A stretch of 64,000 nucleotides of DNA from Ulva prolifera (lineage: Eukaryota; Chlorophyta; Ulvophyceae; Ulvales; Ulvaceae). The notes under the pieces were generated by a model. The model was not told the origin of the DNA, did not search any database, and saw only the letters and a list, made by a program, of their open reading frames with translations. Below are positions 16,964 to 45,982 of this stretch, piece by piece (positions within the stretch are counted from its first letter, which is position 1; each line of letters opens with the position of its first letter). The DNA lies in NCBI GenBank assembly GCA_023078555.1, contig CM041196.1, forward strand, positions 3,906,001 to 3,970,000, in the 5' to 3' direction. The translations under genes were made by a program, and so were the position numbers.

Positions 16964-16966
16964 CCG
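16964..16966. other. Target-site duplication CCG, left copy (outer CACTA)
   Basis: CCG lies directly before CACTAGGG and is repeated at 43187-43189 directly after TAGTG. Joining the left flank to the sequence after the right copy restores an uninterrupted satellite module (GAGTCCG then TGTGGAGTG). A 3-bp duplication is the rule for CACTA/EnSpm transposons. Confidence 0.88.
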
Positions 16967-16991
16967 CACTAGGGAAAGTGGGGGGTTGGGG
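16967..16991. repeat. Terminal inverted repeat, left (outer CACTA)
   Basis: It starts CACTAGGGAAAGTG. Its partner is 43162-43186 on the opposite strand. 17 of 25 positions agree, including the diagnostic CACTAGG. Confidence 0.8.
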
Positions 16992-17199
16992 GACGGGCAC
17001 ATCCATCATGGATACACAGGTTCCACGCAGGTTTGCGCAAATCCACGCAGGAGGCTAGCGCCCCACAGGGTCACCCCGGAACGGTTGGGAATCCATGCTG
17101 GACTGCTTCACAGCGTGCCTTGGAATACTATTGGACCACGTTGGCGTGGCGGCTCTCTCGTGCCAACATGGTCCCACTGTAGCCATAGCGGACTACATC

Positions 17200-17815
17200 A
17201 TCACCAAGGTGGCGCTGCGTCTGGGCCATTGTGCGTGCAACATGTATTTGGAACCATTATGGGCAAATGGAAACTCCACTATGGTGAGGGTGAGTTGTGC
17301 AACGGTGCGCATTACCTCAAATAGCCACGGTGGTGAGCGGCTTTGACCATCATGGCGCTGAATTGAGGCCAGGCCACGCCATGGGGCGCAGCTCTCACCA
17401 TCATGGCAGCACCAGTGGCCACTGTGCGTACAACATGTAATTGTAACCATTATGGGTATTTGAAAACTCGACCATGGTGAGCATGACATGTACAATGGTG
17501 CGTGTACCTCAAACATCCACGGTGGTGCACATCTCTGACCATTGTGGGACTGCATTGAGGCCAGGGCACGGCAATGAGTGCAGCTCTCACCGTCGTGGCA
17601 ACACCTGCAGCCACTGTGCTCACGACATGTTATTGGAACCACGATGGGCACTTGCAAACTCTACTTTGGTAAGGGTGACCTCTGCAATGGTGTGCGTTAC
17701 CTCAACAGCCACAGTGGTGAGCAGCTCAGACCACCATGGCACAGCATTGAGGCCAGGCCACGGCATGGGTTCAGCTCTCACCATCGTGGCAGCACCAGTG
17801 GCTGGAAAGACACAG
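17200..17815. repeat. About 192-bp diverged tandem repeat, left subterminal region of outer CACTA
   Basis: Three related units are seen, anchored by AACCATTATGGG at 17252, AACCATTATGGG at 17445 and AACCACGATGGG at 17637, so the period is 192-193 bp. Each unit also has a CTCACC...GTGGCA box, a CACGGTGGTGAGC-like box and an ATTGAGGCCAGG box. Many boxes are near-palindromes with CCAT/CCAC facing ATGG/GTGG. These resemble the multiple transposase-binding motifs near CACTA ends. No coding is evident. Confidence 0.75.
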
Positions 17816-19980
17816 CTGTGAGCAGCTGTCACGATCATGTAACCTTTAGGATGCCTCCCTGTTGGTGGCAAACATTGACCACAGAGCGAAGTACTCCAAG
17901 CACTAGCTTGCTTGCGAAGCAAGACTGCTGCGGTGGACGGGAGGCTCACGCCGCCAAGAGCACATGACAAAAGTCTGCTGAAACAGTCCACAAGGTACTC
18001 CATGCTGCAGTTCATGTGCTAGAAAAGGCCCCATGGACGGCAAGCATTCTGATACGCCATGAGGCATCGATTCGGTACGAAGCCAAAAATGCAGCTAGCA
18101 ACAGTTAGGTTGCGTGCAGCTCTAGTGCCCACTGAGACTGTTGCGACTTGCAAAGCTACCGAGCTACAGCGATCAAACCATGCAGTCAGCACAAACAACG
18201 TATCTGAAGGTGTCGGTGCCGTCGCACTCGCCTGCGTTACGCACGCATTCATCGGCGCAGATTGAACCATGTCAGTCGATGTCGCAAAGCAGATGACTAA
18301 GGTGATTGCTGATATTGCTTGAGCGGCATAGCTTGCGCGCATTGACGGAGGTATTGACGGGCAACAGCACAGCCGTCTTGTTGAAAACGTGGACACGATG
18401 GTCCATGACACGCATGCCGAAGTCGTGTGTTCACCAAACGATAAAACCAAGTGTCTGCTTGTTTAGCATTTCAATGAGCTATAGTCGAGTGATTTGATTG
18501 GCGTAATGACCAATGCCTGGAGCACGATCGCATGGCCAATGCTCTGGAAGTGTGCATGAAATACTTTTTTCCTGATCAGGTCAGCTTGTACTAACAAATG
18601 CGTAAACACTTTGACATTGCCACAGGGGCTCCACTTGCCTACAGTTCAGACATATCCGCTGTCCATGCCAAGGCTGCGGCTCACCGACGCCACGGTCGCG
18701 GGAGATGCAAGCGAATGTATGTGCCTGCAGCGTTCACCTCTTCGCCAGAGCACCGTGACGCTGCTGCACTGTCGATGTGCTGTGAGTGGCGTTGCTTTCT
18801 GTTTTTAATTCGACCATTTTGCTCTTCCTGTACGCGCATGCCGTAAGCAGGCGTTTTGTTTCCAGAGCCAGGCCCGTACGTGCTGCGGCGGCTTCGTCCC
18901 GGCATGTACATCTGGCCGAGTTCACTACTTGCGTGAGTCGACCGTGCCTTACGATCAGACGAGATCAGAATGACTAGTACGGCGTAGCTGCGCGTACCGC
19001 CGTGGATGCTGATCGAAGGACGCCTGGACAAGGATAAAACTCGGCTGACAAATACAATCAGGATGGTGCACGCTGAAGTGCCGGTGTGCTCAGCATTTCT
19101 TCTGGTGTGTTTCGTGTTCCCCAGCCTAGCGATCACATCTGCTTCACAGCTGACCGAGCTTGGGAGGTGCAGGGCGTCACGTCGTGCGGAGCTCCAAGTC
19201 TGATCTATGCAACATTGCATCTGAGCTGCATGACTGAAATATTGTGTCAATTGGCAAGAGGCCGTGACATCATCATTCTCAAACGTAGCTGCAGTGTTTC
19301 ATACCTCAAATACGTCCCTAGGGCAACCTGGAGACAAAATTGTAGCATTGCTGCTGATGACTTTGGTATGGCCGCAGTGCCACGTACAGTCATATGTCAA
19401 CGAATGTGGCGAGCGAGCTGATGGCATGCTGATGTGAAGTGTTCTGTTGTACTGATGTTTGACTCTGGATGTCACCCTCACCTGCCACCGCAGTCTTTCT
19501 AGTACATGGATCAATGAAAATGGCACTGGTGCTGAGTAGCCTAATCTGACACGTGGCTGTGTTCCCCCACCACATCTCCCTGTCCATGGCCCCTCAGCTC
19601 CAGAGGCCATGGTCGTGACAAGTGACAGTGACATGATAGCATCGTAACCTGGGTCGAGGCATGGGGTCATGCCATTGTCAGGCTTCTTAGGTGGTGATGC
19701 TGGTGTTTGCCTACATCGGGTCACGGTTGTGTCCACACCAGCGGCTATGAAGGACCCACCCCAAGTCCGAAATAAAAGCATGTCAGTGGTCCTTACTCTT
19801 GTTGTACTTGCATTGAAAAGACAATTTATCTTGGGATGGGTGCGCCATCAGCTGTGCAAATGGTGTTGGTGTGGTTGCATGTGTCAAAACACAGGCACGA
19901 CCAGAACGCAGCAAGTCTCTACAACTACTACACATTCTAATGCTCTATCCCTTCATGCAGCTTCAGTACACTGCAAACAC
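17816..19980. other. Outer CACTA interior, no recognised gene
   Basis: The region is unique, mixed-composition DNA. Open frames are at most about 190 residues, and none shows a recognisable domain, repeat or convincing exon structure. It may hold remnants of transposon genes, but nothing supports a call. Confidence 0.6.
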
Positions 19981-21965
19981 AAACGCGGCCAGCTACAATT
20001 CTGCACAGCTTTGTAGCTGCATCGAGTTTTGACATTCTGCAAAGCCATGCTGCTCCCTGACAATATTTATAGCAGGGAATGATACTCATCAGGGCCTGAT
20101 CGCTGCAGGAGGGCGGCCTCAGATCATTGCTACTGGCTGCTGAGCACCTGGAACTGCCACAATTGTGATACAAGCCTGGAAAGCACATGCAAGGCATCAG
20201 GGCAGGACTGATTCAAGCCTACCCCAGCTATCTCACATTCATATGGCATAGTCTGTTCAAGTTTGGCTTGATTCACCCTACACTTGTCTATGGCAATGTG
20301 TGACTCTGTGCATGAGGAGAGTATTCGGGAAACGCAAACAGCTGCAATTCTGCACAGCTTTGTAGCCGCATCGAATTTTGACATTCTGCAAATCCATGCT
20401 GCTTCCTGACCATATTTATAGCAGGGAATGATCCTCATCAGGGCCTGATCGCTGCGGGAGGGCGGCCTCAGATCATTGCTACTGGCTGCTGAGCACCTGG
20501 AACTGCCACAATTGTGATACAAGCCTGGAAAGCACATGCAAGGCATCAGGGCAGGACTGATTCAAGCCTACCCCAGCTATCTCACATTCATATGGCATAG
20601 TCTGTTCAAGTTTGGCTTGATTCACCCTACACTTGTCTATGGCAATGTGTGACTCTGTGCATGAGGAGAGTATTCGGGAAACGCAAACAGCTGCAATTCT
20701 GCACAGCTTTGTAGCCGCATCGAATTTTGACATTCTGCAAATCCATGCTGCTTCCTGACCATATTTATAGCAGGGAATGATCCTCATCAGGGCCTGATCG
20801 CTGCGGGAGGGCTGCCTCAGATCATTGCTACTGGCTGCTGAGCACCTGGAACTGCCACAATTGTGATACAAGCCTGGAAAGCACATGCAAGGCATCAGGG
20901 CAGGACTGATTCAAGCCTACCCCAGCTATCTCACATTCATATGGCATAGTCTGTTCAAGTTTGGCTTGATTCACCCTACACTTGTCTATGGCAATGTGTG
21001 ACTCTGTGCATGAGGAGAGTATTCGGGAAACGCAAACAGCTGCAATTCTGCACAGCTTTGTAGCCGCATCGAATTTTGACATTCTGCAAATCCATGCTGC
21101 TTCCTGACCATATTTATAGCAGGGAATGATCCTCATCAGGGCCTGATCGCTGCGGGAGGGCGGCCTCAGATCATTGCTACTGGCTGCTGAGCACCTGGAA
21201 CTGCCACAATTGTGATACAAGCCTGGAAAGCACATGCAAGGCATCAGGGCAGGACTGATTCCAGCCTACCCCAGCTATCTCACATTCATATGGCATAGTC
21301 TGTTCAAGTTTGGCTTGATTCACCCTACACTTGTCTGTGGCAATGTGTGACTCTGTGCATGAGGAGAGTATTCGGGAAACGCAAACAGCTGCAATTCTGC
21401 ACAGCTTTGTAGCCGCATCGAATTTTGACATTCTGCAAATCCATGCTGCTTCCTGACCATATTTATAGCAGGGAATGATCCTCATCAGGGCCTGATCGCT
21501 GCGGGAGGGCTGCCTCAGATCATTGCTACTGGCTGCTGAGCACCTGGAACTGCCACAATTGTGATACAAGCCTGGAAAGCACATGCAAGGCATCAGGGCA
21601 GGACTGATTCAAGCCTACCCCAGCTATCTCACATTCATATGGCATGGTCTGTTTAAATTTGGCTTGATTTGATTCACCCTACACTTGTCTGTGGCAATGT
21701 GTGACTCTGTGCATGAGGAGAGTATTCGGGAAACGCAAACAGCTGCAATTCTGCACAGCTTTATAGCCGCATCGAATTTTTACATTCTGCAACTCCATGC
21801 TGCTTCCTGGCCATATTTATAGCAGGGAATGATCCTCATCAGGGCCTGATCGCTGCTGAAGGGCTGCCTCAGATCATTGCTACTGGCTGCTGAGCACCTG
21901 GAACTGCCACAATTGTGATACAAGCCTGGAAAGCACATGCAAGGCATCAGGGCAGGACTGATTCA
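19981..21965. repeat. 349-bp tandem repeat, about 5.7 copies
   Basis: The unit recurs at 349-bp spacing, with starts of the shared frame at 20130, 20479, 20828 and 21177. Inner copies are nearly identical; the first and last are more diverged. Copies alternate at one site between GGGCGGCC and GGGCTGCC (20113 and 20460 C-GG, 20811 C-TG, 21159 C-GG, 21507 C-TG, 21863 C-TG), which hints at amplification as a 698-bp pair. Each unit holds a 138-residue minus-strand open frame, which is most likely incidental because it overlaps its neighbour and simply follows the repeat. The array lies inside the outer CACTA element. Confidence 0.93.
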
Positions 21966-24440
21966 TACCACAGTGGTCTGAAATGGATTTGCACATGTTC
22001 AGGTTTACATGTATGCATGTTTCATGAGGCACATTGAGTGACATTGAGTGAAGCTGTGCTTTTCTATTGTATATGCACAGCCATGCTCTAGCATGTTTCG
22101 TACGACACAACGCATTCAGGCATTCCATCACTTCAACTGGCTTTGGTGTTTTGTGTACATGCCGCGATGGTGCTCTCAGCGATGCTCTCAACGATCAGAT
22201 CCGGAAAGAGGGCTGGCTCAAAACACATGGCGCCGGCACTGGATGCAGTTTCTGCAAAGCCTCCAAAATCACTACATCACACCGTGCATAAAGCTTTCAT
22301 GGCCCTGCCAGAGCATGCCGCCTTGTATCTGTGAACAACGTTACATTTGATAGCAATCATGCAGACCACAATCGCTCACAACCCGTTCACTACTACTGCT
22401 AGTCCAGCTGGTGCCTCAATGGCTTAATGCCTGCATGACTGCCATGACTGCAGTTAGCCACATATGACTCTGCACATGGTGATCCCGGTTGCACGAATGC
22501 CCAGGCCTGTCAGCGATCATAATAGGCCAATGTAGGAATCCGAGATCTGCATGATTCACCCATTTGCTCCACCTGCAAAAGAAAATATCATATCATTGAG
22601 TTGGTCATCATATACAAGGTCATGCACACGTGTAACATGATCACGGTGTCATCACGGTGTCGAGGCAGCATGATCCAATTTGGAACGGCGACTCGAATCT
22701 ATGGCATCAAGCCATTTGCAGACATGCTAAGCATGTGACTGTACCTCATGCAATGGTATTGTGTCTCACATCAGGCCTAGGGGGCTGCAACGGAGGTAGA
22801 CATCACCTGTGAGATCAGCCATCATATGCCCAAATGCCACACTCTTCAGCAGGGCAGGACCGCATACCTCAGAGAATGGCCTCCATCTTTACTGGCAATG
22901 GTTCAGAGATCTCCTCTTGGTTGGTGACCACAGCTTGCATCAGGTGTGTGGCCAGCACGGAGTGCAGCACATGTGTACACAGCTCAGGCCCACGCAAGCT
23001 GTCGACCTGTTTTATCGCCAATTCAGCTGTTATATAACGATGGAGAAAGGTTGGCGGAGAAGTACGACGTGCATGCTCAACGATGTACATCATTTTGCAC
23101 GAGCATCACACATATGATCAGAACTCGCATGACGGCCTTGCACGAAATTGTAATCAGAATGAGATTTACAAATTAGTTCTGATCGTCAGCGGGCAGCATG
23201 CGTCCGGGCGTTCCTGGTGTATGCGGTGCACCCTCCGCCATTTGGCTTGTCGCAGTAATGCGCATGTGGCGCTGGGGTCAATTCGGCGATCACGGCAGTG
23301 CTGATCGAAGACACACGACCTTTATATGTCAAGAGCAAGGAGTCACGGACGATTGTCCTCTTCCTTGGTACATATCTTCGGGTGTACGTGGGCTTGGCCG
23401 CGGCCCGTTACTACTGCGCAGCCACTCTCCTGCTTACACAAAGCACTAACGCCAAGGGGCAGACTCTCGGATCGTTTGCTGAACTGTGCAGTCACATTTG
23501 ATCACTGTTGAGAAGTACATGATAGCTGCAGCGTTTCGTGGTATCCAGTACGTCAGCGTCCTCATTGTTACGCAAGGACTGTTGACCACCGCATTACTAC
23601 AGCTCTGCAAGGGAGCGTCTCACACAGCACAGTAGTGATCATGCAATGTTTCAAGGTTAGTGATGCGGTGCGCCTTCCTCTTCAAGGATGTGAGCACCTG
23701 CGGATGCTCGACGTGGTGCTGATTGAGCTGTCGCTTCACAAGTACGCCGCAATCTGATCAATGTAAAATGCGCAGATACTGACATGAAGCTAGCAGCTGC
23801 AGGGGGAAGGTCATGTGGGAACCACTCTGAGCTGATGGACGATATATGCACTATTGTTGGACTGTTGTTAGACTACGACCTCTCCATCGTGTGCAGATGA
23901 CAACATTTCCTGACTCAAGAATGCTTCAAGAGATTAATTTCTGCTGAACATTTGTCACCGCCAGGTATTGAAGCTGCTCTGCCTGCGCTGCCTGCAACGG
24001 GGTAATGTTTTACCATGCAATGTGAAGCTAAATCCGGACTACATTTGTGACCTGCGAGCGACCGACGGTGCTCCTCACACTGACTTCAGCTGAGTGCAGG
24101 ATATTGGTGCAAATCAGGACCGCTCAAAGCCAGGTATGTGCTTTAGTATTGTATCTCCGCCATCTGATTTGGTGTGACTATGCCATGCACCTCTATCTGC
24201 CAAGAACTCTGGCATGACCAGGCTGCAGAAAACAGTACACATACATAGCCTTCACAGCTGAGCTAGGTTTGTATGTGTGCTCGGATATCCGTGATGTGTG
24301 TCTTGGGGCCATGCGTGGCATGCGAACGCAGTGCAATCTTCGCTTTGTCATGACTTGAGCTTGCTACGCAATGTTATTGACACATGATGAATGCATGCAC
24401 AGCCAGCCAGCCTTTGTCATCTTCAACGGCTGATATTCTT
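21966..24440. other. Outer CACTA interior, no recognised gene
   Basis: This is unique DNA with short frames only (about 100 residues or fewer). No protein domain, RNA gene or structured repeat is recognised. Confidence 0.55.
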
Positions 24441-25093
24441 ACCAAAGTGTGCACCTCAATGTGCACCATTGCCTTGCACTGGAACCGGGTATGATTGCAT
24501 CCTCACAGCCTCCGACGCGGTGCAGTGAGCAGCGGCACGCAGGAAGGTGAGCCTGCCATGCGCCATTAGCATTGCCACGAGTGGCCATGCTAATGGGCAT
24601 GGCGGGAACACAACAGCCCTGGGTGCCCTGCTGGCCACCAGCATGGGGTGAACCACAACTGGCACCATGATGCATCGCCGGCATGCGCACCCACAGTGCA
24701 GTGATTGTGAATGAACGCCACCATGATCATGCACCATCCACTGTGGAATCCCAATTTTGCACACACTCCATGTCGCACATCCAGTATGCATCGCTGTATA
24801 CTGTAGAGTGGAATGATTCTGGCTTTCGTGTGATGTCAAGAATCCCGCATGGCTGCCGTTATTTCATAGTGGACACCACTCAGTAATTAGTTATGGGCGA
24901 ACATTCTCATGGTGGGGGGGTGGACATTCCATGATGGACCAAAACTGATGCACACCCACAACATTTTCCTAAAAGGTGTGTGCAAGTCTGGTATACCCAT
25001 GCCCCAGCATAGGGAATGTTGGTGACTGTTTGTATACAGGGGTGCAGATAGTCCACAGTGGACCAGAGGTGATGCACACCCAATGTGGGTTGT
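24441..25093. repeat. Right subterminal region of outer CACTA, part 1
   Basis: It is dense in short palindromic boxes such as CACCATGATG, CCATGATGG, TCATGGTGGG and GTCCACAGTGGAC. A box around GATGCACACCCA recurs at about 24948 and 25069 (121 bp apart). The string TGCCCCAGCAT at about 25000 recurs at about 42813 in the segment beyond the inner CACTA. The two segments therefore look like one subterminal region split by the inner insertion. Confidence 0.65.
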
Positions 25094-25096
25094 AGA
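25094..25096. other. Target-site duplication AGA, left copy (inner CACTA)
   Basis: AGA lies directly before CACTAGGAG and recurs at 42781-42783 directly after CTAGTG. Confidence 0.88.
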
Positions 25097-25127
25097 CACT
25101 AGGAGAATGGCGACACTCTGAAACGGA
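25097..25127. repeat. Terminal inverted repeat, left (inner CACTA)
   Basis: 31 bp beginning CACTAGGAGAATGGCGACAC. Its partner on the opposite strand is 42750-42780, with 28 matches. Confidence 0.9.
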
Positions 25128-25280
25128 TCCGGGTGTCGTCCGCCAGATTCCGAAAGTCCGTTCACTCTCTGATACCTCTCCGACGTCATCGGAAGCGAGC
25201 AGTCGGATGGACCTTGGACTTTGGCACCGAATCATCCGCCGACCCAGGTATAATCTGCCGGACTGTGGACGTACCTTACC
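25120..25280. repeat. Left subterminal motif cluster of inner CACTA (TCCG/CGGA)
   Basis: About a dozen TCCG, CCGA and CGGA tetramers in both orientations fall within some 160 bp (for example ACGGATCCGG, CGTCCGCC, TTCCGAAAGTCCG). The right end (42450-42770) has the same motif. They are candidate transposase-binding sites by analogy with CACTA elements. Confidence 0.7.
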
Positions 25281-25660
25281 GCTGCAAGTGGCCTTCGCGT
25301 GTCTGCGCCGGCTGCCATGATACGAGGTCACTTCGGGCCAAGCCCGCGCTGACAGTGGATCGAATGACACTATTGGTTACTTTATTACTACACGCGTATC
25401 TGGAAACGACTGGATTGGACACGGTGCAGGTATATGTGGACCCATACTCATGGCAACTGACATCGACTTTGGGCAGGAGACGAAGCGGCAGGAAGCTGGA
25501 GGCAGCCTCACAATAGCGGTGACTTTCTGCATCGCCCAAGATAGCGTTGGTCCGTATTTCAGGCTCGGCAGCAGTCCATGTAGTGTTGGTCGTCGCCCTG
25601 TGAATGGTGGCCGGAAAAGCGTGCACATAGGTTCCTGGATGCGAATGCATGCGGTGGTCC

Positions 25661-25884
25661 AGAGTGGCCATTCCGCGAATGGCCACTCTAGCGGGGTTAC
25701 GTCATCATGCTCCAGGTAAGGCGTGCGCTCGTCCTCCTGGACGCGAATACATGTGATGATCCAGAGTGGCCATTCGCCGAATGGCCACTCTGACGGGGTG
25801 ACGTCATCGTAAGGCGTGCGCTCGTCCTCCTAGACGCGAATGCATGCGCTGGTCCAGAGTGGCCATTCGCCGAATGGCCACTCT
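25661..25884. repeat. Three tandem copies of a 29-bp perfect hairpin
   Basis: AGAGTGGCCATTC, a 3-bp loop, then GAATGGCCACTCT occurs at 25661-25689, 25763-25791 and 25856-25884. The 13-bp arms are perfect in all copies and the loops vary. The flanks are also repeated (GACGCGAATGCATG and CGTGCGCTCGTCCTCC), so the real unit is about 93-102 bp. It lies upstream of the plus-strand gene. It could be a protein-binding palindrome or an RNA hairpin. Confidence 0.9.
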
Positions 25885-26125
25885 GACGGGGTGCTGTCAT
25901 CGTGCTCCGCGGGAGTGCGCAGGTGCCGTTGCAATCGGGGCGTCGCGCTGCATGAAATGTACGAATGGAGGATTGTGTGTCTGATACGGTTAATCGCTGG
26001 CGGTCGTAGCTTACCTGGCATCGCAATTCGATACGGTCGAAGTGACTTGGAACTCCGTTGCAGATCTGCGCATCTCGTCACCAGTGACCGCTTTCGCTAG
26101 TAGTATATTGACATACGTATTAGCG

Positions 26126-28320
26126 ATGGATCCACGCGTTGCAGCACTGGTCGCAGGACTGCCAAGTACCCAGCATGGGCTGACTTCTGCGCGCAGCGGA
26201 GACTGGCTTGTCGGTCGCATGCGCACTAGCCGAATCCCAGTAGTGGGTAGTTTGATTTCTAGAGACGGGCGTTTCAGTGACCGAGCCCGCGTCGGCACCA
26301 ATAGCGGTCCAGCAAGCGGGCCTGGGGTGGCTGTGTGGTGGGGCCTTGGGGAGGTCCTGCGAGACAACGTGGTGGTAAGCCGGGGGAGTGAGCTGGAAAC
26401 GGCCAAGGGAGTGGCCGTTACTACCTTTCTCGTGCTCTCCGGCTGGCTCCACGAGCAGGATATGTTCGTGTCCTCGTGGGAGGGCAAAGGGAGGACCCCT
26501 GCTGGGTGCACGGAACCCCTGCGGTGGAGGCCACTGCTGGGAACGAAGGAGGTGTGTGCCTCCTGGTGGGCTGGTGGTACAACTGCTGACCACGCTCTAC
26601 TGCAACTGCCTGTTTACTGCGGAGGGGCGTAGCCTGACTATGCAGTGGGTTCAGTAGTCAGTGCACCCAGCTATGCAGCATAAGGTCACGGGCCACGTCT
26701 CTGAGTCAGGATTCCCCAAGACTACAGTCACGGAGGAGCGAGATCCGGACCTCGCCGAGCGGTTCGATATCCCACATGCGAAGGTTGGGGAGAAGCGCAA
26801 AGCCGCTGACCCCCCGCCTCCTGACGGTGTGCTCACTCCCCGTCTGCTGCCCTTTTTTTGGGAGTCATGCAGTCCGTGTCCACCGCGGGCGTGCCAAATG
26901 CCACCGCGTCCATGCATAAGGTCCACATGTGTTCTTGGGCGTGTCCCAGAGGTGATAGAAGGGGCCCGCTACAAGAGGTGTCGGTGCAGTTTTCTATTGC
27001 CCCACCCCCCGGCACGTCGTGTGGGCATGGGCTTCTTTCATGTCTGGCCTCTCCCCGCATCGTGTCAAACTGTGGACTGCCGGAAAGCGGACACCCGCGG
27101 CGGGGGGGGCCGGGTCCGCTAGGAGCAAGGAGAGACCAACCTCCAACCTCCCTGACGGCCTCAACCCTCTGGTGGCGTGGGTGTTGTATGAAAACGCCCA
27201 CTACGAAAGTCTGGAGGGCTTCATTGAAAAGAAGCTCGAACCTTCTCAGGCAATAGCGCGGCACATTGGGGACCGGTGTCACGCGCTGCTGGCCAACACA
27301 AATGGGGTCCCCTCCCAGGTGGTGTACCAACTGACGTCGGGCGCGTCGGTACTAGCGGACATGCACGTCTGGCACTCGGACCTCATCGAGGCGTTCGTGC
27401 GTTCCTGATGTTTTCTATGATTCCGGTGTGGTCAGGCATGGCTGCCTGTTTGTTTGTGCGTTGTCTGGCTCGGCAGTGCATTCTTTCCACCACGCATGCA
27501 TGAGTGTGGCTAGGCGGCCTCTGATTCCTCCTACACCTCAAGCCTGCCCAGTCACAGTCCTGTGAACGATGAGTGTAACATGCCTCAGATCGTGCAGGAT
27601 ATGAAGTTCCTCGGCGAATTCGTCACCACCCTATACAATCTAGCCCCCTGGGTGTTGGCGTATGCGGCGGAGCATCCGTTGATGGATTGGTCAGAGGTGC
27701 GAGTCGCCACTGTACAGAACATGTTCAGAACATCCCTTGGGCGGCGTGACACTGTGGTGCTACTTGGCCTAACCCCCCATGTCGTTCACTCCTGGGTCCG
27801 GCCGTGCAGGGAGACAGGGTAGCCCGAGCCCTCCGTCCGGCGTGGCTTTATGTCAAGTCATTCTACTCCCACATCATGGGAGCATGTTCAGGGCTGCGGT
27901 CGTCTACACAGGACCTGGCGGCTTTCGCCAGTAGCGGGGTCCACCTCTTTATGCATGCGTATGTGCGCCTCGTTGCTACAGCAATGACAGGCAACCCTGG
28001 GGCGCCTGACCTAGAAAGGCGGGGTGGAGAGGACATCCCGGCGCTGGAGCCCAGTCTCCTTGATCCCGCCTTTGCCGCCATCTTGGTGTGCACGGTCAAT
28101 CACAGCTGTGCGTCGCCAGCCTGTCATGTACACCTGTATATGGAGCTATAGTGTCCTGTTGTATCCCCCCGGGTGGGTCAACACTACGCTTTGCAGTCAG
28201 TGTGAACGCCTGAACCCCGCGGTGCATGCAGGCTTGGTGAAATCGGGGTACGGTCTGCCTGTCAAGAGGTTGGCTGATGCGCTGATTCCATTGTGCCCGC
28301 CCCACACGATCTGGCACTAG
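26126..28320 (+). CDS. Plus-strand gene of inner CACTA, 5' and middle exons (function unknown)
   Basis: A first exon is plausible at 26126-26374: ATG at 26126, 83 in-frame codons, then G|GTAAGC. A second can start at 26679 after CTATGCAG, in phase 0, and reads a charged sequence (KTTVTEERDPDLAERFD). Further protein-like open stretches are about 27050-27399 (containing LPDGLNPLVAWVLYENAHYE), 27587-27800 (IVQDMKFLGEFVTTLYN), 27810-28095 (LRPAWLYVKSFYSHIMGACS) and 28224-28318. These lie in different frames and are separated by GT...AG-like borders, so the exact exon joins are uncertain. No known domain or DDE triad was recognised. It may be one gene with 28329-30084. Its position next to the left end of the transposon suggests a transposon-encoded protein. 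Confidence 0.45.
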
Positions 28321-35590: not shown

Positions 35591-35877
35591 CGCTATGTCT
35601 GTCTATGGTCTTGTTCAGGAAGCCGTCGGCCAATGTCTGCGCGCAGACACGGCGGGCATTCCACTGTTCTGCCGGCGCTCAGACTGCGGTCAAAAGCGCA
35701 GGCATCATTTAGCTCTCTCGTAGCATATTGTTGTTAGACACAATTCGAGAAGCTTGTTTTAATGATCAGCGCTGAGAAAAGCGAACGCGTTCGCTTGTTC
35801 TCTCAACCTGTTTGCTTGCGAGCAATCCCACTGGTTAGTTGCTGCGCGCGACAAACAACCATCTGTCCTGATGCAGG

Positions 35878-38800
35878 ATGTCTCTCTCGAACTCCAACGC
35901 CAACGCCAACTCTCCTCGCGAGGACAGGCGTGACGATGCTGAACAGCAGCCTCTCGTCAACAGGGACGCTGACCAGCAGCTCCCTGACGGAGAACAGCCT
36001 GCGGGTATGTTGCTCCGGGGCGGACGGATTGTCCGGCCACCACCCTCTTCCCACACTGGGCAGAGTAGCCAGCAGGTGCCTATTTCCTCTCATGTCGTGA
36101 ACGATCCTGGTCACACTGAGTCACTCATATCACTCGAGACGTTAACCGAGGCGCTGCGCGCATCTCGGGGGCGTAACGAACCTGATTTGACTAAAGGGAA
36201 ATTGCCTGATTGGAATTACAAGACTGAAAGTTTCGTTGCGTACGAACAGAAAGTCTTTTTGTGGTTAGGTCAGTTCGAGTTAGATCATCTGTTGCAGCAC
36301 GCACCGTCTGCGGACGAACAGCGTGTTCACGCTAGGGCGAGGACACAGGTCCTAATGTCTTTGCCTGACGCGGATAGGACGACTGTCTATCGCATGTCAC
36401 ATTTGTGTGAAGCATGGTCTTACTTGACTGCCAAGTACAGACCTAGCACTGAAGCCGAGATCCACAGACTGTGGAGTCGTTTCAATTCTTTGTCACAACA
36501 CAATAAAGATGTCGCGACATATTGTGGTGAGGTGATGAGTGTTTACACTCAACTGGAGGCACTAGGTGCCGATGTGGGCCAGCGATGGCTTCGATTGAAA
36601 CTGTTAGAGGTGGGGGAAGAGTTCAACGCTGTGCGCGGCGAAGTTCAACACTCCTCCCCTCATGTGATAATAGCCCGTTTGACTGAGCATGCCGATTTGC
36701 TCAAACAACAGCGGTCGCTGCAGGCTAGGTCTGGGGCGCCCGCGGGCAAACCAGGCCATGGCTGGCGCAAGCAGCACCGTGGTGACGGCCCTGTGGTCGC
36801 TGCTCTCGCAGCTGGCCAGGCTCCTCGCGAGGAGACCAGGACCTGTTTCTTCTGCAAGAAGAAGGGACATTTGCGTGCGAACTGCCCCCAACGCAAACAG
36901 GCTGCGGCCAGAGATGTTTGCACTATTGAAATGCCTGCCAAGTATCCACAGCCGGACGCGTCCATGCCGTGGAACATCATTGTTGATAGTGGGTCGGACA
37001 TGCATATAGTAGGAAATCGGGAAATGTTCACTGAGTACGGCCCGTGTCAGAAAGTTGCCAATCTCGCGGGACCAGGGCAGCTTTCTATCATGGGTAGGGG
37101 AACCATTCAGGTGAACCTGGGTGCTTATGTGGACAAGCATGGGAACACGCACCCACTGGATGTGGAAATCCCTGGTGTTTATTATGCTCCTGAATGTCCG
37201 TACAACCTGCTCAGCACGATGGGTCTTAGATCAGAGCAGATGTTCCTAGACACGCGTAGGAATGTGTTATATGTCCCTGGTCTGGGTGATATGGCCACCG
37301 GCGTAGAAGATGACGTCAAGTATCAGGAACTAGATGTAGACGGTCATCCTGTCTTTGCTTTTAAAATGGCGGTAGATACGAAACCCATTCTCGTCGGTGC
37401 GCCTGTCAATAGGGGGGTAGTCTGGTCTAACCAGAGCAGTCCGACCTCAGTTATTGAGGATCAACAGCAGTGGCATCATGTGGCGGTTGCGGCCATTGAC
37501 CTGCAGCGACCCAATGCTGGGGGAGCTGAGGTCCCACATGATGCATACTTGCTGGAACCTGCTTTTCTAGCACACTTGTCTTTTCACCAGTCAAATTGGG
37601 TCCTAAAACGCATGCAATCAAACAGTGAATTCTATGGTCATTTGAATTTAGATGTCGATTCCGAGCCACTGGGGAATCGGTGTCACGGCTGCAGAATTGG
37701 CAAGGTGCCTGCGGGTAACTTCTCTGCCAATGATCGTGAGCTCATGGGTCAGGCCAAGTGGCCTGGTGAGCAACTGCATGCCGATTTAGCTGGTCCTGTC
37801 TCTCCGGTAGGAATTGGTGGTGTGAAATATGTTTTGTTTGTGATGTGTGCCTTTACCCGATATACTTTCGTGATCGGTCTGCGCAAAAAGAGTGAGGCTG
37901 CGGCCATGGTCTCTTACATTATCGAACGCATTCGGGTGAATGTGGTGAAGCCAGGTGAACCGGGTGTGCGCATCCTACACACAGACAAAGGGGGAGAGTT
38001 TATGGTCGCGGCCTTAAAGCTCTACCTCCAGCGTCGTGGCATCACTCACCGCTTGACCCCCACAGCCGCTCATCGCTGTAATGGCATGATCGAGAGGAGG
38101 ATCGGAGTGGCCTTTGAGTCACTCCGTGCTGTGCTGCTCGCGAGCGGCCTGCCTCTGTTCCTGTGGATAGAATGCCTCGCCAGCGTTGTCCATGGTCACA
38201 ATCTCACGCCATCATCGGCACTGTACCATGACAAACTGGCGAGCATCCTCAAGGGCCTGAAAGCTCAGCATGCTGTCAATGCGTCTGCGGACGTTGACGA
38301 AGCCGAAAAGAGCCTGGGGAAGGGTAAGCGTATGAAAAAGGCCGAGCGCGATAAGTTGAGGGATGAGGAGAAACGCAAGTACAAGTTGCTTGCGACAACA
38401 GAATTAGATGAGTTTTTAGTGCGGTCTTGTGATAAGGATATCATTCCTTATATGGCCTTTTTCCGAGACACCTCCGTTGAGGTGTTCCAAGATCTGCTGC
38501 GGCAGCAGCGTCCGTGGGGGGTTGAAGTGTATGCATACCCTAGGGATGACAAGCTGCGGAAGTTGTCCCCGCGGGGTGTGCCTGCATACTGGGTCGGGGC
38601 TGGGTTAGGCCCCAGCATGCAGCGTGTGTACGCCCAGGACGTTCCTGGGGGTAGGGTTTTTGTTGTGCGTCAGGTGATGTGCACTGCGGATCAGATGATC
38701 CGGCACGTACGCAAGTACGATGCGTCCGCCGTTGTGGACAAGAGGGAACCTGAGGAGTTTGCGAACTCCTATACGGTTGCTTTCGAGGGGGACAATGAGG

Positions 38801-41430
38801 GTGAGCGTGTGACTGACGCCGATGTCCCTCCTTTCGCGGCAGAGCACACGTATGATGGGGGAGTGTTGCGCCGTCTGCGTGACCAGCTTCACACCCCCCC
38901 TGGTCATGGTAGGGTTCCTGTCATGGAAATGACATTCCGGCAGGACAACCCTGACCCTGATCCTACTGCGTACTCTCCACGATTTGGAGCTGGCTCCTCT
39001 GCGGAGATTATCCGACGTGACCCTGCTAGGGCAACGCCGGAAATAGCCAGAGCAGCTTTGCATCGCACGCGTGCGATATCCAGAGCTGCTGCTCACCCTG
39101 CCGTACCTGCTCCCCCTCGTGTTCACGGCGAAGTGTATCATCCTGTCGCCACGCCCTCTCGCACCGCGCGGTATGTTGTCACGCGCAATGCTGTGTTGCA
39201 CGACCCTGGTGTAGAAGCTGCGTTTCCTGTTCGGGTGTCTGTCAGTGCGTCTGATGACGCCATGGAGGAGGATGATGACAGTCCTGGCATTTATGATGAC
39301 GATGACGAGCAGCGCATGGACTACACCGTCTCAGATGATGAACGAGCTGCGGCTCATCAGCATCTGGAGGCTCAGCGGGTCCGCTCTGGGAGTAATTCGG
39401 CAGCGGCCTCAGCATCTGGCGCGGGGGCAGTTGCTCAGCCCTTGCGAGGAGCTGCGGCGCCGAGGCCCTTCTGGGAGGATGAGCCAGATGAGGTGGAGAC
39501 CGGGTCCGAATTAGGGGGAGAGGATCCGGACCCCTCAGCCGCGGTTGGGGTTGATTTGCCTGACGAGGTGAGGGCCATTCCAGTTGCCTTACCCCGTATT
39601 AAAATCAATCCTCTTGTACGCAGACGCCTTGTTCCATTGGCTGCGGATGTAGCAGCTGTACAAATGCATGAGCCTGCGGGCTCTGACATTGCTAGTAGTA
39701 AGACAGTTGAAGTTGCTATTGATGTTTCAGCTTGCGATCAGGACACATCAGCCGCGGCTGACTGTGGAGTGTCCTGTGCAGGCCTGAAGCCTCAGCATGT
39801 GGGGTCTGGCGAGCAGCAGAATGCTCAGCGTCATGGGTCGCGCAGAGCAGCTGCCGCCAGGAAGCAGAAGCCTTCCGACCCTGATCTGCCTTCTATGAAG
39901 GAAGGACTCGCGGGTCCAGACAGGGATGCGTGGCTGCGTGCCATGCAAGCGGAGGTAGATGCACTGGGTGAGCACGGAACCTTCGGGTTGTGCTATCTGC
40001 CTGCGGGCAAACGGGCTATCTCGGGCAAATGGGTGCTCAAGATCAAGCGTGGGCCTGCTGGTGAGATTCAGCGGTACAAGGCACGATATGTAGCTCGTGG
40101 TTTTTCTCAGGTAGAAGGAGTAGATTTCTTTGAGACATGGTCCCCTGTCGGTAGTTATGCGACGCTGCGTGTGTTGCTGTCAATAGCTGCTCAGGAGGAT
40201 ATGGAGATTAGGCATATAGATATACAGTGTGCTTTTCTGAACGGTGACCTGGAGGAAGAGGTTTTCGTTGAACAGCCCCCGTATTTTTCAGACGGGACAG
40301 CACGTGTATGGAAATTGCATAAGACTCTGTATGGCCTGAAGCAAGCCGCTCGCGAGTGGCATAAAGCTTTAGTAAAGGTCTTGGCTGAACTGGGATTTGT
40401 GTGCGCACAGAGTGATCCCGGACTGTATGTCAGTAAAACCAATCGGTGCTTTATCTTTCTGTGGGTGGATGACTTATTTATTTTCAGTTGCTCTGCGGGG
40501 CTGCAGGAAATAATCACTGTTATTCTCACAAAATTTGAAGGCAGAGATTTAGGTGACCTGTCTTGGGCACTTGGCACTGAGATCACGCGTGATCGAAAAG
40601 CCAAAACAATCACAATGACACAACGCAACAAGATCCAGAACTTGCTGGAAAAGTACAGCATGTCTGACTGTCGTAAATCTCCCACTCCATTAGTGCCGCG
40701 GCAACAACTAAGGAGTGTGAAAGAGCATCCTGACCTGGAGAAAGCCAGTGCTGCTGAGCATTCCAGGTTCATGAGTGCTGTAGGAAGCATCCAGTACATT
40801 GCAGGAGTGACACGACCTGACCTGAGCTACGTGGCACATGCCCTGGCCCGGCACATGTCTAGTAGTCTGAAGGAACACTGGTCTGCCGTGCAACACGTTC
40901 TGAGATACCTACAGTCCACGAAAAATCTAGGAATAAAATTTGTAGGCTCTGAGGGACATGGGTGTTTGCTAGAAGCTTTTTCAGATGCAGATTTTGCGAA
41001 CTCTGCTGATCTGAAAAGCGTGTCTGGTATGATTATTCGAGTGTATGGGAACTCTGTTCTCTGGCGTTCGAAGAAGCAGAGTATAGTGGCTGGGGATACA
41101 ACAGAGGCTGAACTCATCGCGATGAGTGCAACAGCCAACGAGTTGATGTGGGTGAAGCAGTTGCTTCTCGATTTGAAACTCGTCCCACATAAGCCGACTC
41201 TGTGGGGTGACAATAAGAGTGCCAATATCTTGGCTGTGAATGCTGTGTCCACTGACAGATCCAAGCACATTCGTGTGCGGCACTTGCGAGTGCGGGAATA
41301 TGTCCAGATGGATGAACTTAAGGTAGCATGGGTCGGCACTGTCGATCAGTTAGCAGATGTGTTTACTAAAGTGCTGCCCGGACCTGCTTTGCTAGAAGTT
41401 CGTAATAAACTCCAGCTAGTGGAGACGTAG
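35878..41430 (+). CDS. gag-pol: Copia Gag-Pol polyprotein
   Basis: A single 1850-residue frame. The Gag region (about 90-300) begins near LTKGKLPDWNYKTES. A CCHC zinc knuckle CFFCKKKGHLRANC sits at about 322. The aspartic protease motif IVDSGSDMHIVG is at about 368. A GAG-pre-integrase His/Cys region follows (CHGCRIGK). The integrase has HADLAG (about 634), HTDKGGEF (about 702) and GMIERR (about 738). A long variable, acidic linker runs about 950-1330. Reverse transcriptase starts near KWVLKIKRGPAGEIQRYKAR (about 1385), with the catalytic box WVDDLFIF (about 1529; YVDD is commoner). RNase H has SDADFA (about 1702), TEAEL (about 1742) and DNKSA (about 1779). Integrase before reverse transcriptase defines Copia. 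With one frame and no gag stop, processing is by the element's own protease. It looks whole. Confidence 0.97.
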   Translation: MSLSNSNANANSPREDRRDDAEQQPLVNRDADQQLPDGEQPAGMLLRGGRIVRPPPSSHTGQSSQQVPISSHVVNDPGHTESLISLETLTEALRASRGRNEPDLTKGKLPDWNYKTESFVAYEQKVFLWLGQFELDHLLQHAPSADEQRVHARARTQVLMSLPDADRTTVYRMSHLCEAWSYLTAKYRPSTEAEIHRLWSRFNSLSQHNKDVATYCGEVMSVYTQLEALGADVGQRWLRLKLLEVGEEFNAVRGEVQHSSPHVIIARLTEHADLLKQQRSLQARSGAPAGKPGHGWRKQHRGDGPVVAALAAGQAPREETRTCFFCKKKGHLRANCPQRKQAAARDVCTIEMPAKYPQPDASMPWNIIVDSGSDMHIVGNREMFTEYGPCQKVANLAGPGQLSIMGRGTIQVNLGAYVDKHGNTHPLDVEIPGVYYAPECPYNLLSTMGLRSEQMFLDTRRNVLYVPGLGDMATGVEDDVKYQELDVDGHPVFAFKMAVDTKPILVGAPVNRGVVWSNQSSPTSVIEDQQQWHHVAVAAIDLQRPNAGGAEVPHDAYLLEPAFLAHLSFHQSNWVLKRMQSNSEFYGHLNLDVDSEPLGNRCHGCRIGKVPAGNFSANDRELMGQAKWPGEQLHADLAGPVSPVGIGGVKYVLFVMCAFTRYTFVIGLRKKSEAAAMVSYIIERIRVNVVKPGEPGVRILHTDKGGEFMVAALKLYLQRRGITHRLTPTAAHRCNGMIERRIGVAFESLRAVLLASGLPLFLWIECLASVVHGHNLTPSSALYHDKLASILKGLKAQHAVNASADVDEAEKSLGKGKRMKKAERDKLRDEEKRKYKLLATTELDEFLVRSCDKDIIPYMAFFRDTSVEVFQDLLRQQRPWGVEVYAYPRDDKLRKLSPRGVPAYWVGAGLGPSMQRVYAQDVPGGRVFVVRQVMCTADQMIRHVRKYDASAVVDKREPEEFANSYTVAFEGDNEGERVTDADVPPFAAEHTYDGGVLRRLRDQLHTPPGHGRVPVMEMTFRQDNPDPDPTAYSPRFGAGSSAEIIRRDPARATPEIARAALHRTRAISRAAAHPAVPAPPRVHGEVYHPVATPSRTARYVVTRNAVLHDPGVEAAFPVRVSVSASDDAMEEDDDSPGIYDDDDEQRMDYTVSDDERAAAHQHLEAQRVRSGSNSAAASASGAGAVAQPLRGAAAPRPFWEDEPDEVETGSELGGEDPDPSAAVGVDLPDEVRAIPVALPRIKINPLVRRRLVPLAADVAAVQMHEPAGSDIASSKTVEVAIDVSACDQDTSAAADCGVSCAGLKPQHVGSGEQQNAQRHGSRRAAAARKQKPSDPDLPSMKEGLAGPDRDAWLRAMQAEVDALGEHGTFGLCYLPAGKRAISGKWVLKIKRGPAGEIQRYKARYVARGFSQVEGVDFFETWSPVGSYATLRVLLSIAAQEDMEIRHIDIQCAFLNGDLEEEVFVEQPPYFSDGTARVWKLHKTLYGLKQAAREWHKALVKVLAELGFVCAQSDPGLYVSKTNRCFIFLWVDDLFIFSCSAGLQEIITVILTKFEGRDLGDLSWALGTEITRDRKAKTITMTQRNKIQNLLEKYSMSDCRKSPTPLVPRQQLRSVKEHPDLEKASAAEHSRFMSAVGSIQYIAGVTRPDLSYVAHALARHMSSSLKEHWSAVQHVLRYLQSTKNLGIKFVGSEGHGCLLEAFSDADFANSADLKSVSGMIIRVYGNSVLWRSKKQSIVAGDTTEAELIAMSATANELMWVKQLLLDLKLVPHKPTLWGDNKSANILAVNAVSTDRSKHIRVRHLRVREYVQMDELKVAWVGTVDQLADVFTKVLPGPALLEVRNKLQLVET

Positions 41431-41432
41431 CA

Positions 41433-41447
41433 GGGTTTATGGGGGAG
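41433..41447 (+). other. Polypurine tract of Copia element
   Basis: GGGTTTATGGGGGAG lies directly before the 3' LTR. It is the expected primer site for plus-strand synthesis. Confidence 0.8.
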
Positions 41448-41802
41448 TGTCACAATGCATGAGCCTGCGGGCAGCAGTGTGGTGACAGGTGCACCCATGC
41501 ACGAACGATCCGCAGATCTAGTGTAGGGGTAAGCCGCCAGCTAGGATCGTCTCGATGTAGTGAGAGAGATCGTGCGAGGGTTTCCCGCCGTAACCTTGAG
41601 TGTTGAGTGTTCAGTGTGCATATAAGCATGTGCACACTGAGATCTGTAACCATTCTCATTACTGTCTTACGGTATTAGCACTCTCCTTTCAGCATCTCTC
41701 GGTTCTACCTCTGTGCGCAGCAGGTACGAGATGCTGGCTGTCCTGACCTGACTTGAACGAGGACTGCGCGTCCGCCCTGCACGTATGATAGCTTTTCTGA
41801 CA
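41448..41802 (+). repeat. 3' LTR of Copia element
   Basis: 355 bp, one mismatch to the 5' LTR by eye, followed by the GTAGC duplication at 41803-41807. Confidence 0.96.
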
Positions 41803-42130
41803 GTAGCAGCCGCATACATGTGCGGCGCAGCAGTTCATCGCTCACGTATACTTGTTCAGGGCAACGAGTCGATCGATATTTGATCAGCCTCTTCAAGAGC
41901 TGGACCATCCGCTCGATCCAGAATTCAAGACTGAAGAAGGATGCACCGCAGCACCTCACCTGATCCGGAAGGTGACAAGCTGCCAGATGCAGCTTGTACG
42001 TGCTGAGAGCGGCGCCCTCAAACGTCTCCTCCGCCAGCTTGGCGTACTGCAGCATCAATCGCTGTGCTTCCGTGATTCGGGCCGGTGTGTGCTGACCCTC
42101 TTGAGCTATGTATGAATCTAGCGATGAACA
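41803..42130 (-). CDS. Transposon-type protein of inner CACTA, 5' part (DUF4218-like)
   Basis: The minus-strand open frame contains ITEAQRLMLQYAKLAEE, then YKLHLAACHLPDQVRCCGAS, then SLEFWIERMVQLLKRLIKYR and CPEQVYVSDELLRR. The order (K-H-L-L-H-L-P, then G, then F-x-x-E-R-x-x-x-x-L-K, then P-E) is that of the DUF4218 region in the CACTA transposase protein family. Recognition is by pattern only. A 3' splice-like site lies near 42100-42130 (CATCGCTAG, CATACATAG). A small upstream exon may end at ACAT|GTAAGC near 42277, containing LTKGVMGVITGSDLVAHM. The DDE catalytic core, normally upstream, has no room before the element end at 42780. The frame agrees with 34332-35217 across the Copia insertion. 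Confidence 0.55.
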
Positions 42131-42439
42131 AGGAAAGCACGCGCCATGTAAGCACCTACAGCATATGAATGCAGGCATGTTGCCAACTGCAGCCCCGTGT
42201 TCACGTGCCTCATAACAAAGAAAACAACCACATCATGCTTCCACAAAACCGCGATCCTTCCTGCACTCCGCTTACATGTGCGCGACCAAGTCTGATCCGG
42301 TAATAACGCCCATGACGCCTTTGGTCAAGCATTGCGTGTCCACAAGTGCACACTCCTCGTAACCATACGTGAGTATATCTCAAGCCAGACGGATACATGT
42401 ACGTCAAGAGGTCACCAATCCTACGGCCCAGCCTGTACT

Positions 42440-42780
42440 TCCCGCATCCCCGAGGCGGACGCCATACGGATCCGAGACGGATCCGAAATTTAGTGCACGC
42501 GTCCGTAGTCCCTCCGTCGGACGCACAACGGAACCGTCTTTTCTTCCGTACATCCTCCGGTTGGGCTCCGAAGGCAGGCTAGTAACAAAAGGCGTTGCCC
42601 TGGGGCGTACCGGACGGGAATCGGAAAATCCTACCTGCCTCTGCCCCACCTCCGCCACAAGTCTCCGATACTCCTAGCAACCTACGTCCGGCCTCCACCG
42701 ATTCTCCGTAGGCTCTCCAACTACCCCTCCGCACACACTACGTCAGCTCTCCGATTCACCGTGTCGCCATTCTTCTAGTG
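42440..42780. repeat. Right subterminal motif cluster and terminal repeat of inner CACTA
   Basis: About twenty TCCG or CGGA tetramers in both orientations (for example GGATCCGAGACGGATCCG and TCCGTCGGA), ending in the terminal inverted repeat at 42750-42780. It mirrors the left end. No coding is supported here. Confidence 0.8.
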
Positions 42781-42783
42781 AGA

Positions 42784-43186
42784 GAGGTGTATGCAAGTAT
42801 GGTCAACCCTTGCCCCAGCATGGAGCCAAACCAATTCACTCTGCCATGGGCTGAGATGGTCTCTGACCCATCATGGTCAGGCTGCTCACCCTTGTGGACC
42901 GCAATTTTAACATGCTGGCCGAACATCTCATGCATGCCAGCGTGGTACTGTATGAGGCTCATGCCACGATGCATTATGTAATTTCCAGGGCGATCCCGAT
43001 GGAAAGTGTGCTATCCACACCGGAATGCCCTGATCCACACTGCCAAAGCCATGCATCCATTGTGTGATCGGCTTGTCAGAACATGGGAGACACACAAAGC
43101 CAAGGTGCCGATTCATGAGATCCGTAATGGATTTGATCATGACACAGTGGAAAGGCATGTTGCCTAACTGCCCTTTTGTCCTAGTG
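42784..43186. repeat. Right subterminal region of outer CACTA, part 2
   Basis: It contains CCATCATGG, GCCATGGGC and TGCCCCAGCATGG, shared in type with 24441-25093 and 17200-17815, and ends CCTAGTG. The terminal inverted repeat is 43162-43186. No gene is seen. Confidence 0.7.
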
Positions 43187-45982
43187 CCGTGTGGAGTGTC
43201 CGTATGGAGTGTCCGTGTGGAGTGATCGGGTCCGTGTGGAGTGTCCGTGTGGAGTGACCGAGTCCGTGTGGAGTGTCCGTATGGAGTGACCGAATCCGTG
43301 TGGAGTGTCCGTGTGGAGTGACCGAATCCGTGTGGAGTGACCGAGTCCGTTTGGAGTGACCGAGTCCGTGTGGAGTGTCCGTATGGAGTGACCGAATCCG
43401 TGTGGAGTGTCCGTGTGGAGTGACCGAGTCCGTCTGGAGGGTGCGTGTAAGGTTCCCGTGTGGAGTGACCGAGACCGTGTGGAGTGTCCGTATGGAGTGA
43501 CCGAATCCGTGTGGAGTGTCCGTGTGGAGTGACCGAGTCCGTGTGGAGTGTCCGTGTGGAGTGACCGAGTCCGTGTGGAGTGTCCGTGTGGAGTGACCGA
43601 ATCCGTGTGGAGTGTCCGTGTGGAGTGACCGAATCCGTGTGGAGTGTCCGTGTGGAGTGACCGAGTCCGTGTGGAGTGTCCGTATGGAGTGACCGAATCC
43701 GTGTGGAGTGTCCGTGTGGAGTGACCGAATCCGTGTGGAGTGTCCGTATGGAGTGACCGAATCCGTGTGGAGTGTCCGTGTGGAGTGACCGAGTCCGTGT
43801 GGAGTGATCGAGTCCGTGTGGAGTGTCCGTGTGGAGTGACCGAGTCCGTGTGGAGTGTCCGTATGGAGTGTCCGTGTGGAGTGATCGGGTCCGTTTGGAG
43901 TGTCCGTGTGGAGTGACCGAGTCCGTGTGGAGTGTCTGTATGGAGTGACCGAATCCGTGTGGAGTGTCCGTGTGGAGTGACCGAATCCGTGTGGAGTGAC
44001 CGAGTCCGTTTGGAGTGACCGAGTCCGTTTGGAGTGACCGAGTCCGTGTGGAGTGTGCGTGAGAGGTTCCCGTGTGGAGTGACCGAGTCCGTGTGGAGTG
44101 TCCGTATGGAGTGACCGAGTCCGTGTGGAGTGCCCGTGTGGAGTGACCGAGTCCGTGTGGAGAGTCCGTATGGAGTGACCGAATCCGTGTGGAGTGTCCG
44201 TGTGGAGTGACCGAGTCCGTGTGGTGTGATCGAGTCCGTGTGTAGTGTCCGTGTGGAGTGACCGAGTCCGTGTGGAGTGTCCGTATGGAGTGTCCGTGTG
44301 GAGTGATCGGGTCCGTGTGGAGTATCCGTGTGGAGTGACCGAGTCCGTGTGGAGTGTCTGTGTGGAGTGACCGAATCCGTGTGGAGTGTCCGTGTGGAGT
44401 GACCGAGTCCGTGTGGAGTGTCCGTGTGGAGTGACCGAGTCCGTGTGGAGTGTACGTGTGAGGTTCCCGTGTGGAGTGTCCGTGTCCTTGTGGAGTGTCC
44501 GTGCGGAGTGTCCGTGTGGAGTGACCGGGTCCGTGTGGAGTGTCCGTGTGGAGTGACCGAGTCCGTGTGGAGTGTCCGTGTGGAGTGACCGAATCCGTGT
44601 GGAGTGACCGAGTCCGTGTGGAGTGTCCGTGTGGAGTGACCGAATCCGTGTGGAGTGTCCGTGCGGAGTGACCGGGTCCCAGTGGAGAGTCCGTGTGGAG
44701 TGTCCGTGTGGAGTGACCGAGTCCGTGTGGTGTGTCCATGTGGAGTGACCGAATCCGTGTGGAGTGTCCGTGCGGAGTGACCGAATCCGTGTGGAGTGTC
44801 CGTGTGGAGTGACCGAGTCCGTGTGGTGTGTCTGTGTGGAGTGACCGAATCCGTGTGGAGTGTCCGTGCGGAGTGACCGGGTCCCAGTGGAGAGTCCGTG
44901 TGGAGTGTCCGTGTGGAGTGACCGAGTCCGTGTGGAGTGACCGAGTCCGTGCGGAGTGTACGTGTGAGGTTCCCGTGTGGAGTGTCCGTGTCCTTGTGGA
45001 GTGTCCGTGTGGAGTGTCCGTGTGGGGTGACCGGGTCCGTGTGGAGTGTCCGTGTGGAGTGTCCGTGTCCTTGTGGAGTGTCCGTGTGGAGTGTCCGTGT
45101 GGAGTGACCGGGTCCGTGTGGAGTGTCCGTGTGGAGTGAACGAGTCCGTGTGGAGTGTCCGTGTGGAGTGACCGAATCCGTGTTGAGTGTCCGTGTGGAG
45201 TGACCGAGTCCGTGTGGAGTGACCGAGTCCGTGTGGAGTGTCTGTGTGGAGTGACCGAGTCCGTGTGGAGTGTACGTGTGGAGTGACCGAATCCGTGTGG
45301 AGTGTCCGTGTGGAGTGACCGAGTCCGTGTGGACTGTACGTGTGAGGTTCCCGTGTGGAGTGACCGAGTCCGTGTGGAGTGTCCGTGTGGAGTGACCGAA
45401 TCCATGTGGAGTGTCCGTGTGGAGTGACCGAGTCCGTGTGGAGTGTCCGTGTGGAGTGACCGAATCCGTGTTGAGAGTCTGTGTGGAGTGACCGAGTCCG
45501 TGTGGAGTGACTGAGTCCGTGTGGAGTGTCTGTGTGGAGTGACCGAGTCCGTGTGGAGTGTACGTGTGGAGTGACCGAGTCCGTGTGGAGTGTCCGTGTG
45601 GAGTGACCGAGTCCGTGTGGAGTGTCCGTGTGGAGTCACCGAGTCCGTGTGGAGTGTCCGTGTGGAGTGACCGAGTTCGTGTGGAGTGTCCGTGTGGAGT
45701 GACCGAGTCCGTGTGGAGTGACCGAGTCCGTGTGGATTTTCCGTGTGGAGTGCCCGAGTCCGTCTGGAGTGTACGTGTGAGGTTCCCGTGTGGAGTGACC
45801 GGGTCCTAGTGGAGAGTCCGTGTGGAGTGTCCGTGTGGAGTGGCCGAATCCGTGTGGAGTGACCGAGTCCGTGGGGAGTGTCCGTGTGGAGTGACCGAGT
45901 CCGTGTGGAGTGTCCGCGTGGAGTGACCGAATCCGTGTGGAGTGTCCGTGTGGACTGACCGAGTCCGTGTGGAGTGACCGAG
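43187..45982. repeat. Satellite array A, segment 2
   Basis: Same 13/19-bp modules, same orientation and continuous phase with the left arm if the outer CACTA is removed. Its first 300 bp resemble the last 300 bp before 16966. Minus-strand open frames of up to about 900 residues here are artefacts of the stop-free repeat. Confidence 0.96.

Follow-up and report, generated by a model that had tools for sequence, protein, structure and literature searches.

Three transposable elements nested in a satellite array of Ulva prolifera

We describe here a 26-kb island of insertion DNA in a satellite array of the green alga Ulva prolifera (assembly GCA_023078555.1, 88.9 Mb in 44 contigs). The window, that is the whole stretch of DNA analyzed, comprises 64,000 nucleotides of contig CM041196.1 (C1:3906001-3970000); positions without a contig name are counted from its first base, and features lie on its forward strand unless stated otherwise. 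The island is flanked on both sides by satellite with units of about 13, 19 and 32 bp (Tandem Repeats Finder, TRF), which occupies positions 1-16966 on the left, where it belongs to an array that extends further along C1, and 43187-56322 on the right. The island almost certainly consists of three insertions, one inside the other: an outer CACTA-type element, a second CACTA-type element within it, and a Copia element within the second. A preliminary description of the window had proposed three such nested transposons, each with its own target duplication, and the three duplications (CCG, AGA and GTAGC) can indeed be read to the base. Genome searches scored the best 40 candidates, so that the copy numbers given below are lower bounds and absences hold among the copies scored; satellite comparisons were made on 92 kb of contig, C1:3878001-3970000.

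The outer element and its satellite site

As it now stands, the outer element extends from 16967 to 43186, of which about 8.5 kb is its own DNA (16967-25096 and 42784-43186). Both ends were read directly: CCG (16964-16966) is followed from 16967 by CACTAGGG on the left, and the right end, ...CCTAGTG at 43186, is followed by CCG (43187-43189). The element has CACTA...TAGTG termini and a 3-bp target duplication, and the island bounded by these ends is wholly insertion DNA, as had been proposed. The accompanying claim that the satellite was formerly unbroken holds for the island, but the array carries other insertions and near-identical duplicate blocks, which are described further on.

The same ends recur in other copies of the genome. 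For the left end, where the best 40 of 128 candidates were scored, ten of the 12 other element matches listed begin at 16964-16967, and the other two begin 13 bases inside. On the right side, short-repeat and satellite rows being left out, 16 other matches begin at 42781-42782; 13 of them end at 43186-43188, one continues into satellite, and two end early. Target duplications agree in five of six other pairs of ends (GGG, CAT, CAC, ATG, TGT). The sixth pair, with ends 26 kb apart, does not match; pairs were picked by nearness on the contig, and a mismatch may simply mean a wrong pair. By eye, the flanks of the other copies contain no target motif. Four copies of the outer family (L011-L014, on C15, on C13 and twice on C2) share a 30-base right flank, one base off in one of them, and judging by this flank they seem to have arisen by larger duplications and not by separate insertions.

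The features shared with CACTA (En/Spm) elements are the CACTA...TAGTG ends, a target duplication of 3 bp, internal repeats, a large size and the existence of deleted copies, whereas the outer element departs from them in its imperfect inverted repeat. Among the internal repeats is a 349-bp tandem repeat at 19981-21965 (5.6 copies, 1985 bp). The longest frame within the element's own DNA has 205 amino acids, and three of 48 listed frames were scanned against Pfam, none scoring above cut-off. Since many CACTA copies are non-autonomous, a missing TNP2 would not exclude membership in this group, and the outer element is probably itself non-autonomous.

Concerning the site of insertion, the preliminary description had suggested looking for an unoccupied 16964/43190 junction, and over short flanks such a junction occurs: the joined flanks of the element are present exactly at four places of the array over 40+40 bp, and at three over 50+50 bp. 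Exact joins also arise in controls, with 11 of 3000 random cuts over 40+40 bp and 4 of 3000 over 50+50 bp, 176 and 72 of 3000, respectively, when cuts were made in the CCG phase, and 141 of at most 2000 joins in another control run over 40+40 bp. The restored satellite is by itself only moderately improbable. Moreover, a 3-bp match across a random satellite cut is not rare (7.5%), and the proof therefore rests on the other genome copies, whose shared ends outweigh the satellite itself.

The inner element and the Copia element within it

The second CACTA-type element, with the Copia element inside, now extends from 25097 to 42780, its insertion point being 403 bp from the right end of the outer element. 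On the left, AGA (25094-25096) is followed from 25097 by CACTAGGAG, and on the right TTCTAGTG runs up to 42780 and is followed by AGA (42781-42783). The inner element thus also has CACTA...TAGTG termini, which form a terminal inverted repeat with matches at 27 of 31 positions, and a 3-bp target duplication. Both boundaries are common to other copies, as the preliminary description would predict: 25 other matches begin at 25093-25099, and 23 end at 42777-42784. Target duplications of other inner copies agree in five of eight pairs (TAT, GGC, AAG, ACC, GAC). The empty site is available in the outer family, where all 14 other copies listed on both sides join 25096 to 42781 with a 3-bp overlap and a single AGA.

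The Copia element (35218-41802) has TGTCAC...CTGACA ends and lies between two GTAGC copies (35213-35217 and 41803-41807). Its two long terminal repeats (LTRs) of 355 bp each (35218-35572 and 41448-41802) are equal in 354 of 355 bases, and the start of the LTR is common to other copies. Between them lies an open gag-pol frame of 1852 amino acids (35872-41430) with gag, zinc knuckle, integrase and reverse transcriptase. Pfam identifies RVT_2 at residues 1369-1607 (190.6 bits, E value 4.6e-56) and Pol_BBD above cut-off; rve (residues 630-730) falls just under it with 31.1 bits against 32.6, and gag is also just below. The integrase precedes the RVT_2 reverse transcriptase, which is the Copia order. 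In its TG...CA LTRs, its 5-bp target duplication and the succession of gag, integrase and reverse transcriptase in one frame, the element is a typical Copia (Ty1) member with nothing unusual. All four inner copies that were read (L038, L039, L040, L046) have a single GTAGC and no Copia, and in none of the 39 other inner copies scored (the best 40 of 119 candidates, including the copy in the window) does a Copia LTR end at the same base. Among other Copia copies, the target duplication agrees in one of three pairs (CACAG). Each layer of the nest can thus be removed to leave a site that exists elsewhere in the genome, in agreement with the preliminary description.

The inner element differs from its relatives by more than the Copia insertion. 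Compared with the copy at C4:2925151-2942762, of which only the right 7.5 kb and the left end were read, it has an internal deletion of about 6365 bp, with the joint at 42102/42103. The four inner copies read carry on with longer sequence past this joint, and all 39 other copies scored drop out of the alignment at or before it. The size of this deletion is nearly equal to the 6.59 kb gained with the Copia element, a similarity that we take as coincidence.

Regarding coding content, the minus strand of the inner element contains a long open frame (31978-34086) and a motif in another frame (31313-31342), which together (31313-34086) look, judging by the motif, like an intron-split Ulp1-like (C48) protease gene; Pfam gave no match to them. 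Exon-wise Pfam scans of the inner frames, those of the deleted part included, and of a hand-joined exon string yielded nothing above cut-off. By eye, the minus-strand frames of the deleted part, present in the longer copy L046, look TNP2-like. As the lost part of about 6.4 kb holds these frames, the inner copy in the window is probably non-autonomous.

The array and its other insertions

A 29-base unit of the satellite matches the genome exactly 848 times, always on the forward strand, and 284 of these matches lie within C1:3878001-3970000. The first among the matches listed is at C1:3797861, and the unit positions, for those matches whose contig is given, would fit a single array of about 165 kb on C1. 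Within the window, a second 32-bp satellite (GTACGTGTTCAGTGTCCGTGCGCGTCGTCCGT, 56329-61404) adjoins the main array, and the array edge lies at 61405-64000. By eye, a product resembling a non-LTR reverse transcriptase seems to be encoded in the first few hundred bases of this edge.

The right part of the array is interrupted by two identical copies of a 998-bp element with TGTC...GACA ends, flanked by CCGAG (45983-46980 and 50093-51090). Both ends are common, within a few bases, to 23 of 43 other genome rows. Two genome pairs in equal orientation, about 9.2 kb apart, fit the LTR pair of a complete element, and we therefore take the 998-bp element as a putative solo LTR. The two copies are identical across 1081 bases including their near flanks, and they lie in a duplicated block of 2293 bp with 99.65% identity and an offset of 4110 bp, identified by an ungapped diagonal scan of the 92 kb that misses blocks with indels. 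In our reading, the solo LTR was duplicated together with its satellite. Its own empty site is weakly demonstrated, given that the joined flanks are found exactly at five places over 25+25 bp and nowhere over 30+30 bp.

Further CACTA-type ends occur in the same array. Upstream of the window, a third type with CACTACAAGAAACC ends (C1:3893598-3901565; L041/L043) has TGT on both sides and an internal tandem repeat of about 175 bp. Its joined flanks are found exactly at four places over 60+60 bp, and a 400-bp query beside its left end has 13 other full-length matches. The right end of yet another CACTA-type element (TCTCCTAGTG) abuts satellite at C1:3879508 (L042:508). Four CACTA-type ends (outer, inner, third type, and this fourth right end) are thus present within about 83 kb of array. 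By eye, another satellite of the GGCACTATGTAGGCATGGTTCCATGTCCGTGC type also holds an outer-family and an inner-family copy (L007/L019, L053/L054), and makes up the start of C2 (L050). Five contig ends inspected by eye had no telomere repeat, and a search for the RuBisCO large subunit gave no match.

Order of insertion and competing explanations

A sister copy of the outer element, without any inner element, lies 30 kb upstream of the focal one (C1:3883501-3893112). Over 1262 bp, the two are reciprocally nearest among 12 outer copies (99.6%), the next nearest reaching 98.65% to the sister and 98.57% to the focal copy; over 1787 bp they share 99.72%, against at most 98.27% for the others, three copies covering only part of this length. 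Outside the 349-bp tandem repeat, which takes up about 3745 bp in the sister, they differ by 21 substitutions (10 + 9 + 2) in 5869 aligned bases, three bases being counted twice. Moreover, the right junction of the sister lies in the same satellite register as that of the focal copy. The 64-bp flank in question is found at seven places in the 92 kb, against 2812 CCG sites, which gives a chance of about 0.2% for the same register.

These data suggest that elements transposed one after another into a satellite array, and that this array also duplicates its own blocks. An 8.5-kb CACTA-type element, probably non-autonomous, inserted at a CCG of the satellite, after which the array segment bearing it would have been copied, the other copy being the present sister, whose left 682 bp would then have been lost. 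The second CACTA-type element inserted at an AGA of the focal copy only. Its 6.4-kb internal deletion and the Copia insertion at GTAGC may have taken place either before or after it landed here. We consider it likely, from the sequence comparisons above, that the sister arose by array duplication after the outer insertion, and the outer element probably preceded the inner one at this locus. It is not the nesting that indicates this order, but the existence of a nearest relative in the same register without inner element. The statement of the preliminary description that the order can be read directly was therefore too strong.

CACTA elements transpose by a cut-and-paste mechanism and may take along cargo, including an older insertion, so that nesting by itself does not tell whether the inner or the Copia insertion took place before or after its host arrived. 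It is therefore possible, though we hold it to be clearly the less probable course, that the nest was assembled elsewhere in whole or in part and arrived as one piece, either the inner element with its Copia (and its deletion) or the outer element with the inner one. The nesting would look the same in either case, and a donor copy need not remain. Against a joint arrival of outer and inner elements speaks the sister copy, which lies in the same array without the inner element. Against a joint arrival of inner element and Copia speaks the lack of a Copia at this base in all 39 other inner copies scored, although a donor that was excised or lies among the unscored copies would still be compatible with it. 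The sister might also represent an independent insertion into the same satellite register by a short local hop, for which En/Spm elements are known and which would likewise give a pair of nearest relatives. We regard this as unlikely, given that the register is so rare among the CCG sites and that the array elsewhere duplicates blocks bearing insertions. Finally, the region is made of repeats within repeats and is known here from assembled sequence alone, yet a chimera of repeat-rich reads is a very improbable source of the nest, as its six junctions obey the target duplications to the base and agree with the ends found in many other copies.

Several observations nonetheless weigh against serial insertion followed by array duplication. 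The joined flanks of the outer element are found nowhere in the 92 kb over 60+60 bp. Three of the eight inner pairs have no matching target duplication (two differ, and one right end is unreadable), nor do two of the three Copia pairs (one differs, and in the other the LTR end is altered). Pfam assigned no transposase family, either to single frames or to hand-joined exons. A match to TNP2 (PF02992), the transposase type of CACTA (En/Spm) elements, was not obtained, and a genome search with PF02992 gave no match but also detected none of 14 controls, so that it says nothing. The sister lacks the first 682 bp of the element and, with it, the left junction. Furthermore, its 480-bp satellite flank scores 477 with the empty register at C1:3902561 against 443.2 with the focal flank, which ranks ninth of about 2700 sites; room must therefore be left for a subsequent exchange or an independent insertion.

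Four different CACTA-type ends lie within about 83 kb of the array, the inner one inside the outer, and the outer element and the solo LTR both appear as array duplicates. In a less probable reading, which we put forward only tentatively, the array would be at once a preferred landing place of CACTA-type elements and a copier of them, multiplying landed elements by duplication and with no transposition.

In the rye subtelomeric heterochromatin, tandem repeats are reported to co-amplify with transposable elements (PMC4857426). This was the only work returned by our search for CACTA elements, a satellite array and nested insertion together. The Ulva locus resembles the rye arrays, as described there, in that tandem arrays grow along with the transposable elements beside them, and in having solo LTRs, nested insertions and recombination; it differs in that the mosaic flanks of rye were inferred from bacterial artificial chromosomes and 454 reads, whereas here the whole nest, the empty sites and the duplicated solo LTR can be read (PMC4857426). 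Our search for nested CACTA elements in satellite, algae included, returned work that, judged by titles, concerns plants. The components and processes involved (CACTA-type and Copia elements, solo LTR, co-amplification) are known and the events are ordinary, and we do not present the nest as a new kind of event.

Nested insertions in satellite DNA are often difficult to reconstruct, their empty sites being lost or unassembled. Here, there is for every layer an existing empty site to compare it with, and the insertions mark duplications of the array, making satellite turnover measurable in this genome.

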